This document shows, piece after piece, positions 2,526 to 6,219 of a stretch of DNA of 32,092 nt (within the stretch, counting starts at the first letter, position 1; each line of letters begins with the position of its first letter). Where the stretch lies: positions 1-32,092 of the forward strand of contig CAMBIK010000015.1 of NCBI GenBank assembly GCA_945867435.1, in the 5' to 3' direction. A program made the translations under genes and the position numbers. A model generated the notes under the pieces. It searched no databases. It saw only the letters and a program-made list of their open reading frames with translations, and was not told where the DNA came from. The stretch is from Klebsiella pneumoniae. GTDB taxonomy: Bacteria > Myxococcota_A > UBA796 > SXON01.

Positions 2526-4022
2526 TCACCAGGCCGTGCCCCCGGGTGCCGAGAGCCCCGACCTGACCAACGTTCCTACCGCGACGAGCGCGGGGTGCAT
2601 CACCTGATCGTCGGCCCAGTAGGGAACGACCTCCCGAATCCGCGCGTGGAGCGCCATGATTCCGGGTCCGAAGCGGTCGGGCGCCACGCGGTCCCGCACG
2701 CCATTCACGACGCGATCCCCTCGGAGACGCCAGTCCAACCCTTGCGCGGCAAGCAGGGCTTCGATCCCCACGATGTCGGCCACACATTCCAGCACGCGCA
2801 GCGTGTGGCGGGCCGCGATCGGACCCATGCTGACATGGTCCTCGTGGTGCTGGACCGTGGGAATGCTGTCCACGCACGCCGGATGCGACAGGCCCTTGCA
2901 TTCGCTGGCGAGCGAAGCGGCCGTGTACTGCGCGAGCATGAAACCGCTGTTGAGCCCGGTCCCTTCCACTAAATAGCTTGGGAGGTCCTTGGTGATCGAG
3001 GATGCGGTGAGCCGGAACGTGCGCCGCTCGCTCTGGGTGGCGGCCTGGGTGAGCGCGATTCGAAGGGTATCCATCGCCAGCGCCACGGGGGCACCGTGAA
3101 AATTGCCGCCTTCGACGACCCCTTCATCCTCGAACCACAGCGGGTTGTCACAGGCCCCGTTCAGCTCCACGGCAACGGTGCCTTCCACCCAATCGAGGGC
3201 GTCGAGCGCAGCACCGAGCACGGCCGGGGCCGCACGAAGGGAGAACGCGTCGGGAGAACGTGCGCCCAACCCCGGCTCTCCGAGGCGGTCGCGAAGCGCC
3301 TGGGCGACCCGAATCCCCCCCGAGTGCCCACGCGCCCCCACCAACGCCGCGGACAAGAGCCCCTTGTCGGCGCGGGAGACCGCCAGCGTGAGCGCACAGG
3401 CATCCAGCGCCGCATCCAGCACCCGCCGGGAACGAAACACGGCCAACGCCGATAAGGCGCTGGTGAGCGTGGCGCCGTTGATCAAGGCCAGCGCTTCCTT
3501 CGCGGTCGGGACAAACGCGGCGAGGGGCGAAGGGCCCACCGAGCCATCGGGCAGGTCCGCCCGGCCCCCGAAGCCGCACAGCACCCGGGCCACATGCGCC
3601 AGCGGCGCAAGATCGCCCGCGGCACCCACCGAACCCTGCGAAGGCACCACCGGAATCACGCCGGAGTCGAGCATCGCACACAGGGCTTCCACTAGCGCGG
3701 GCCGCACGCCGGAGTGCCCCCCCGCGAGCACGTTCGCCCGACAGGCGATGAGGGCCCGGACCTGACCGCTCGGCAGGGGCTCGCCAACGCCGGCACAATG
3801 GCCGATGACGAAGCTTCGCACCAGGTCTTCCCCTGAGACAGCCGAAGCGCCGATCAGGAACCGCCGCTTGGTTTCCAACACGTTGGGGGAGGTCGGGTAG
3901 GCGGCCGCAGACCGGTCCATCGCAGCGCGGGCGGCGGGGGCAAGGCGGATGCCGGCACCCGCGGCAATGGCGGCGACCTGCGAACAGCTGAGCGAACGGC
4001 CGTCGATCTCGATGGGGCTCAT
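2526..4022 (-). CDS. Aromatic amino acid/histidine ammonia-lyase family (MIO-fold) paralog B, predicted MIO-deficient
   Basis: 498 aa. GSVGAAGDLAPLAH, HEDHVSM, GGNFHGAPVA, NSGFMLAQYTAA are family signatures, but AAG replaces ASG. Confidence 0.9.
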   Translation of the reverse strand: MSPIEIDGRSLSCSQVAAIAAGAGIRLAPAARAAMDRSAAAYPTSPNVLETKRRFLIGASAVSGEDLVRSFVIGHCAGVGEPLPSGQVRALIACRANVLAGGHSGVRPALVEALCAMLDSGVIPVVPSQGSVGAAGDLAPLAHVARVLCGFGGRADLPDGSVGPSPLAAFVPTAKEALALINGATLTSALSALAVFRSRRVLDAALDACALTLAVSRADKGLLSAALVGARGHSGGIRVAQALRDRLGEPGLGARSPDAFSLRAAPAVLGAALDALDWVEGTVAVELNGACDNPLWFEDEGVVEGGNFHGAPVALAMDTLRIALTQAATQSERRTFRLTASSITKDLPSYLVEGTGLNSGFMLAQYTAASLASECKGLSHPACVDSIPTVQHHEDHVSMGPIAARHTLRVLECVADIVGIEALLAAQGLDWRLRGDRVVNGVRDRVAPDRFGPGIMALHARIREVVPYWADDQVMHPALVAVGTLVRSGLSAPGGTAW

Positions 4023-5515
4023 GCGAACGCGCCCTCCGCGATACGGGCGGCGATGACCTCGATGGCTTCCGCCGCCACCTCATGTTCGGCGGCGATCGAC
4101 TCCAAAAGGGGCATCACGGCCTCGGCACCGGCCCCGAGCCGCACGCCAGGCGCCTCGTCCAGCCGAAGCCGAAGGGCGCGGGAGGCGCAGAGCAGCTCGA
4201 TCGCGACCACGCGGCGACTGTTCTGGACCATCTCCCAAAGCCTCCACGCGGCCGTCGTGGACATGGCCACATGGTCCTCCTGGTCTTCACACGTCGGGAT
4301 GCTGTCGACTGTCATCGGCCACGCCAGCGCCTTGTTCTCGGAGACCAGGGCCGCCGCGGTGGTCTGGGGCACCAGCATGCCGAGGTCGGGCCGGTCTCGC
4401 CCCACCAGCGCCGGAGGCAGGCGTGAGGAGAGCGACCCCGTGGTGAGCCGGTAAAGCCGCCGCTCGGAGATCGACGCGATCTCCGCCACCCCGACCTTCA
4501 TCGCGTCGGCGGCCATGCCCACGGGCTCGCCGTGAAACAAGCCGGCGGAGAAGGCGTGGTTCGCGACATCCTCATCCATCAGCATCACCGGATTGTCGGT
4601 CACGCTGTTCAATTCGATCTCGACCGCGCCGCGCCCATAGCGCAGCACATCTCGCACGGCCCCCAGAACAATCGGCGTACAGCGTAGAGAATAGGCGTCC
4701 TGGACCTTCTCCGGCATCGAGTCGACAAGCGTGCTTCCTGCCAGCAACTCCCGCAGGCGCGCCGCGGATTCGATCGCGCCAGGGTGAGGCCGCAACGCGT
4801 GTACAGATGCGTGAAAAGCGCGACTAACGCCGCGGAGCGCCTCGATGCTCATTGCGGCCGCCCGCTCGGCGGTCCGCAGCAGCACCGTTGCGTCGTGCAG
4901 CGCCAGAGCCGTGATGGCGGTCGTGAGCTGCGCGCCGTTGGTCATGGCCAGACCATCCTTCGCGGCCGGCGTGAGCGTGCCGATCCCTGCGGCCCGCATC
5001 GCCGCGACCCCGCCGCTGGCCGTTCCCAGCACCTCGCCCCCCTCGCCGAACACGACCAGCGCGAGATGGGAGAGCGGCGCAAGATCTCCCGACGAACCAC
5101 AGCTTCCCTGGCGTGGCACCTTCGGCACCACGCCGTGCTCCAACATCCGACACAGCGTTTCGACCAGGGCGGGGCGGCACCCCGACGCGCCCCGTGCGAG
5201 CGCGTTCGCACGCAGCACCATCATGCCGCGAACGACATCCTCCGGGCAGGGTGGTCCGACGCCAGCGGCGTGACTGCGGATCAGGTTTCGCGACAACTGG
5301 CTGGTGTCTGCGGTGGCGATCCGGACCCTCGCCAGCGAGCCGAAACCCGTGTTGATCCCGTAGATAGGCGCATCGGAGGCCAGGGTGGATTCCACCCAGT
5401 GAAGGCTCCGTTCCATCTCCACGCGGGCGGCCGGCGCGAGCGAAACCACCGCTCCGGCGCGGGCAACCGCCACAAGGTCATCGAGGCTCAGCGACAGGCC
5501 ATCCAGCGCGATCAT
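4019..5515 (-). CDS. Aromatic amino acid/histidine ammonia-lyase family (MIO) paralog A
   Basis: 498 aa. YGINTGFG, GSCGSSGDLAPLSH, DAYSLRCTP, QEDHVAM. ATGA overlap with paralog B. Confidence 0.9.
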   Translation of the reverse strand: MIALDGLSLSLDDLVAVARAGAVVSLAPAARVEMERSLHWVESTLASDAPIYGINTGFGSLARVRIATADTSQLSRNLIRSHAAGVGPPCPEDVVRGMMVLRANALARGASGCRPALVETLCRMLEHGVVPKVPRQGSCGSSGDLAPLSHLALVVFGEGGEVLGTASGGVAAMRAAGIGTLTPAAKDGLAMTNGAQLTTAITALALHDATVLLRTAERAAAMSIEALRGVSRAFHASVHALRPHPGAIESAARLRELLAGSTLVDSMPEKVQDAYSLRCTPIVLGAVRDVLRYGRGAVEIELNSVTDNPVMLMDEDVANHAFSAGLFHGEPVGMAADAMKVGVAEIASISERRLYRLTTGSLSSRLPPALVGRDRPDLGMLVPQTTAAALVSENKALAWPMTVDSIPTCEDQEDHVAMSTTAAWRLWEMVQNSRRVVAIELLCASRALRLRLDEAPGVRLGAGAEAVMPLLESIAAEHEVAAEAIEVIAARIAEGAFA

Positions 5516-6219
5516 GGGATCTCAACCCAGATCGAGCGGGGGCCGGGAGTAAGCGTGCCATCGGAGGCAATGCGAAACCAGGCGCGAAAGCCGCGCTTCT
5601 CCGACTGGCCGTGGACCAGCACGTCCATGTTCCCATCGCCATCGAGGTCGGTCGGCGGGGCGAGCACTGGCACAGCGCAGGTCGCTTCCGCGTCGGGCAA
5701 GAGCACGGACGACAGCGTAGCGCTCGCCTCCGCATCCAGCACCGCCAGCGCCGCCTTGCAATCGGAAGGGCTGTTCACAGGCGAAGGCCCATCCTTTCCC
5801 GGAATGCCGTGATCGCCGCTCGTGGCCACCGCCAAGTACACAGGAGGCGCCAGATTCCGCCTCATCTTCACCATGCTGCGCATCGACACGCCCGCGCCCC
5901 GCGCCGGATCGATCTCCGGGGTCGGGGCCGCGCCGAGCACGTCTCGCAGCCGGAATCCGGCGCGTTCCACCAGCGCAGCTGGCACGGGGGCGCCCTTGAG
6001 CACCGCCGGCACGTCGCGACCGACCACCCACAGGGGACCCGCTTCCCCCAGCAGCGTGGTGCCCGACGGCCCCGGCGAGGGCACGCGGGTCACCGTGCCC
6101 GCCGGGCTCCACAGCAGGACAGGCTCGGTGTAGGTTCCCTGAACAATCGCATTTGCACCCGACTTATAGACGCCGGCATCGGGCGTCGGGGCGGGGCACG
6201 CGAGGAGGAACAGCAGCAC
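5512..6219 (-). CDS. Putative lipoprotein with one FG-GAP/VCBS-like motif
   Basis: N-terminus MLLFLLACPAP (lipobox-like LLAC); DLDGDGNMDVLVHG. 4-nt overlap with the downstream ammonia-lyase start. Confidence 0.65.
   Translation of the reverse strand: MLLFLLACPAPTPDAGVYKSGANAIVQGTYTEPVLLWSPAGTVTRVPSPGPSGTTLLGEAGPLWVVGRDVPAVLKGAPVPAALVERAGFRLRDVLGAAPTPEIDPARGAGVSMRSMVKMRRNLAPPVYLAVATSGDHGIPGKDGPSPVNSPSDCKAALAVLDAEASATLSSVLLPDAEATCAVPVLAPPTDLDGDGNMDVLVHGQSEKRGFRAWFRIASDGTLTPGPRSIWVEIP

Follow-up and report, generated by a model that had tools for sequence, protein, structure and literature searches.

Two overlapping paralogs of the MIO-family ammonia-lyases are encoded on the minus strand of the analyzed window, a stretch of 32,092 nucleotides. 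Gene A (4019..5515, 498 aa) is the presumed catalytic subunit, and gene B (2526..4022, 498 aa) is the putative pseudo-subunit, with an Ala-Ala-Gly triad, no Tyr53 loop, and the changes Y280F and Q277P. The stop of A and the start of B share an ATGA overlap of 4 bases (4019..4022, minus strand), which points to translational coupling of the two genes. The start of A is itself overlapped by an ORF for a lipoprotein-like protein of 235 aa (5512..6219, minus strand), which precedes A chiefly in members of the same family and is probably co-transcribed. An Rfam scan of the window gave no match.

In nearly all adjacent pairs of the relatives, the two genes overlap, abut, or lie at most about 55 bases apart. 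They are separated by 2.9 kb in one genome (G057), and in one genus (g2) all five genomes have them on different contigs. As both genes are still kept in this genus, the retention of A and B cannot be put down to mere linkage.

Catalytic residues and fold of A and B

Both proteins matched Lyase_aromatic (PF00221) over most of the profile, with 551 bits for A and 396 bits for B (E 2.8e-118), both above the curated cut-off of 27.3 bits. The extracted sequences (43 of B, 44 of A) were aligned for comparison, and residues are given in PpHAL numbering. The triad of B at positions 142-144 is encoded by GCC GCG GGC (3615..3623, minus strand) and its translation reads GSVG-A-A-G-DLAPLAH, while DAFSLR stands in place of a DPYSLR-type motif and YGINTGFG is absent. 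All three departures had been noted at the single locus and recur among the relatives: Ala occupies position 143 in 43/43 B sequences, the mobile loop with the catalytic Tyr53 is missing from 43/43 (residues 56-62, with the deletion lying around 53-62), and Phe is found at 280 in 42/42 alignable sequences. Since the same changes appear throughout, they are not sequencing errors. Gln277 is likewise lost from B, with Pro, Ala, or Thr at this position among relatives. All 43 B sequences thus have neither the X-Ser-Gly triad from which MIO is formed nor the loop tyrosine of a MIO-dependent ammonia-lyase, and the MIO reaction is not expected of a protein without Ser143, Tyr53, and Tyr280.

The remainder of B is preserved over its 498 aa, as had been proposed, with GGNFHG, NSGFM, and HHEDHVSM in the translation. 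The ligand-binding residues H83, N195, R283, F329, and E414 are kept in its pocket, which may still bind histidine or urocanate and would in that case be an allosteric site. The original prediction had also allowed for B being repurposed to catalyze a reaction without MIO, to which the conserved H83, N195, R283, and E414 would be suited. This part of it found no support, as the MIO serine, Tyr53, Gln277, and Tyr280 are all gone and B was never found in a genome without A; we regard such an activity as highly improbable.

Gene A keeps YGINTGFG, the SH motif, DAYSLR, and QEDH. Ser143, Tyr53, Asn195, Tyr280, Arg283, and Glu414 were all present in 43-44 A sequences, as was Gln277. A therefore carries the residues of a MIO-dependent ammonia-lyase, though with the triad Ser142-Ser143-Gly144 (43/43 A sequences) instead of Ala-Ser-Gly. 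The SH motif, reported as a mark of histidine recognition (PMC11432326), and E414 are invariant in A, M382 is only 35% kept, and positions 326-328 and 370-382 are non-canonical compared with HAL in nearly all A sequences. Neither paralog reached the cut-off of 539 bits of the histidine ammonia-lyase equivalog model TIGR01225 (hutH), with 518 bits for A and 395 bits for B. The broader model NF006871 was passed by A (543.6 vs 524) and failed by B. The Ser-Ser-Gly triad of A, its departures at 326-328 and 370-382, and the ATGA overlap had all been missing from the original prediction.

AlphaFold monomer models were obtained with a pLDDT of 88 for B and 89 for A, the lowest-confidence stretch of the A model (361-378) lying inside its divergent region. 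HAL structures were the best fold matches of both, with a TM of 0.85 for B and 0.9 for A. The characterized HutH enzymes (PpHAL 1b8f, TcHAL 6v6h, and GkHAL) share the fold, PF00221, and most structural motifs with A and B, and all their catalytic residues are kept by A, although the Ser-Ser-Gly triad of A is unlike that of known HALs. Ergothionase (6s7j), TAL, PAL, and TAM have fold and MIO chemistry in common with this group but are farther from A and B by sequence and fold score. These enzymes possess the MIO triad.

The departures from canonical HAL fall in different regions of the two proteins. A departs at 326, 328, 370, 376, 379, and 382, positions at which B, except at 326, mostly follows the canonical pattern. 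B departs at 53-62, 143, 277, 280, and 325, all of them canonical in A. Among 106 conserved columns, 62 were kept by both proteins, 23 by A only, 12 by B only, and 9 by neither. Complementary loss over these columns was not significant (odds ratio 2.0, p 0.19), so that complementarity is claimed just as a regional pattern. Within these bounds, the divergence of A at 326-382, where B is largely canonical, suggests a mutual dependence of the two proteins.

Distribution and co-inheritance of the pair

When 58 related genomes were searched at the protein level, B-like proteins with open frames were recovered from most of the order. In a profile search of 71 class and 379 phylum genomes, B was present in 47 genomes, all from one order, with scores of 590-815 bits; the next scores, at most 457 bits, belonged to canonical HALs and A. 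A scan of a collection of 84,980 species genomes gave 25 B loci, most of them titled as MAGs of Deltaproteobacteria, Proteobacteria, or Myxococcota. Wherever a record title could be read, the genome was a MAG or a bin. B genes are also carried by public MAGs under the titles Klebsiella pneumoniae, Bifidobacterium breve, or Rhodobacterales (L028, L031, L032, L044, L046); these genes cluster with B of Deltaproteobacteria MAGs and the record titles look wrong.

No genome with B and without A was found in the order search or in the class and phylum profile search. Only one genome (G010) has A alone, and its A sits at a contig end. A and B are thus strictly co-inherited, in the manner of a prozyme-type pair of a dead and a live paralog, a pattern that the original prediction had not included.

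In the phylogenetic tree, the A clade and the B clade are each 100% supported with closely matching branching orders, and the split that sets both apart from 31 canonical HALs has 100/99 support. This topology agrees with a single duplication basal to the order. A and B distances were correlated over 36 genomes (r 0.92), and B evolves at about 1.3 times the rate of A. In comparison with nine congeners, dN/dS was 0.07-0.18 in A and 0.11-0.23 in B; these values are rough, as dS was close to saturation.

The loss of catalytic residues and the faster evolution of B are what a decaying pseudogene would display, and this reading is refuted by the conservation of the gene: more than 40 species have an intact B frame, alignment columns are on average 62% identical across the order, and dN/dS is low. 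We give decay practically no credence. Purifying selection acts on B, and with its presence in at least 47 genomes and its confident HAL-like model, B is borne out as a maintained pseudoenzyme.

As A retains every canonical catalytic residue, it could work alone as a self-sufficient homotetrameric HAL, with B as a separate MIO-less binder, sensor, or regulator, acting by itself or loosely on A. The kept residues of the B pocket would suit histidine or urocanate binding without catalysis. However, the strict co-inheritance, the coupled genes, and the matching trees favor B as a partner, and the 326-382 region is non-canonical in nearly all A sequences and largely canonical in B. An independent A is for these reasons considered unlikely.

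Histidine degradation genes in pair-carrying genomes

Among 43 pair genomes, the urocanase gene hutU passed the cut-off in 39 and was present in fragments in one more; the remaining three genomes are 72-81% complete. The imidazolonepropionase gene hutI was above the cut-off in 49 of 58 genomes of the order. Protein and profile searches found no third MIO lyase in the pair genomes, the extra rows being fragments, and no HAL above the hutH cut-off. A and B would accordingly be the sole candidate for a histidine ammonia-lyase in genomes with urocanase and imidazolonepropionase, a context that had not entered the original prediction. Deamination of histidine to urocanate by A and B is supported indirectly by hutU, hutI, and the absence of another HAL.

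A canonical HAL was seen in just one genome of the order (G042), which carries hutH adjoining hutU and has no A or B, and two others (G029, G049) contain a long HAL with an insert in place of the pair. Set against the pair genomes, these three indicate one HAL solution per kind of genome, with A and B being that of the pair group. The long HAL-type MIO lyases (L083-L085, in G049 C130, G029 C106, and G043 C200, respectively) occur in genomes without A and B and show an ASG triad, the SH motif, an insertion of roughly 150 aa ahead of the QDDYS motif, and another, small insertion; the L083 copy is broken across two frames. Four further sequences (L069, L071, L072, L081) form a separate clade of single-copy MIO lyases with QEDFVSMG and GANFQGTP, in some of which Cys replaces the MIO serine. 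The only urocanase match in their genomes is weak (410-430 bits vs about 890 and above), and this clade may belong to a route for ergothioneine or another modified histidine.

A heteromeric MIO lyase of A and B could also act on another substrate, e.g., a modified histidine, with histidine being degraded by an undetected enzyme. Such a role would agree with the score of A below the hutH cut-off, its Ser-Ser-Gly triad, and the poorly kept M382. It is opposed by the invariant SH motif and E414 of A and by the presence of hutU and hutI without any other MIO lyase in the pair genomes, and we judge it distinctly improbable.

A proposed two-gene histidine ammonia-lyase

We consider it likely that A and B are the catalytic and the pseudo-subunit of one heteromeric histidine ammonia-lyase, where the heteromer, the dependence of A on B, and the substrate are all inferred. 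The heteromer is suggested by the strict company that B keeps with A. Further arguments for this reading are the fixed lesions of B beside the fixed catalytic set of A, their co-inheritance from what appears to be one duplication, purifying selection, and the presence of hutU and hutI in pair genomes that lack other MIO lyases. Against it stand the location of A and B outside any hut operon and three genomes (G036, G039, G056) in which hutU and hutI are present and no HAL of any kind was detected, two of these MAGs being 91-94% complete.

In the proposed enzyme, A would bear the MIO, presumably formed from Ser-Ser-Gly, together with the catalytic tyrosines and the residues for histidine recognition. 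B, unable to form MIO, would be indispensable to A for structure or activation and would provide the HAL-like 328-382 region and the C-terminal segment lost from A. Since HAL is a homotetramer, A2B2 is the simplest stoichiometry to assume, and this enzyme would open the degradation of histidine in the order. In a stricter version, offered more tentatively and itself rather doubtful, the two genes would make up an obligate HAL whose reaction is confined to the A sites, with the B pockets turned into allosteric sites for histidine or urocanate that control A, or the MIO cyclization of A would require B in trans.

HAL is a homotetramer with each active site assembled from three monomers (PMC11432326). 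No open text was found that allots each HAL active-site residue to its subunit. Known HALs are homotetramers of one gene product, whereas two paralogs are found here, one of them without the MIO serine and the loop tyrosine. The nearest working analog is the deoxyhypusine synthase of trypanosomatids, in which DHSc and the dead paralog DHSp form a 2:2 heterotetramer with an activity increase of about 3000-fold (PMC3663545). It shares with A and B the prozyme principle of a dead and an active paralog of a homotetrameric enzyme but is a eukaryotic enzyme of an unrelated family and reaction, in which the activation is shown and not inferred as for A and B. In trypanosomatid AdoMetDC, a dead paralog (prozyme) likewise activates its active sister (PMC5201418, PMC6221367), and activation would be the corresponding role of B; this enzyme is unrelated and, unlike the proposed A2B2, a heterodimer.

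No MIO-family pseudoenzyme or heteromeric HAL was found in the literature searched, which covered few subscription papers, and a dead and an active paralog kept as partner subunits appear not to have been described previously for the MIO family. The pair fills an annotation gap, as its genomes appear to be without hutH by the cut-off of the standard model. If the proposal is true, gene duplication has turned a homotetramer with three-subunit sites into an enzyme with one catalytic and one dead type of subunit, an arrangement that has been stable across the order. A and B would then parallel, in bacteria, the prozymes of trypanosomatids, and the family concerned includes the therapeutic and biocatalytic workhorses PAL and HAL.
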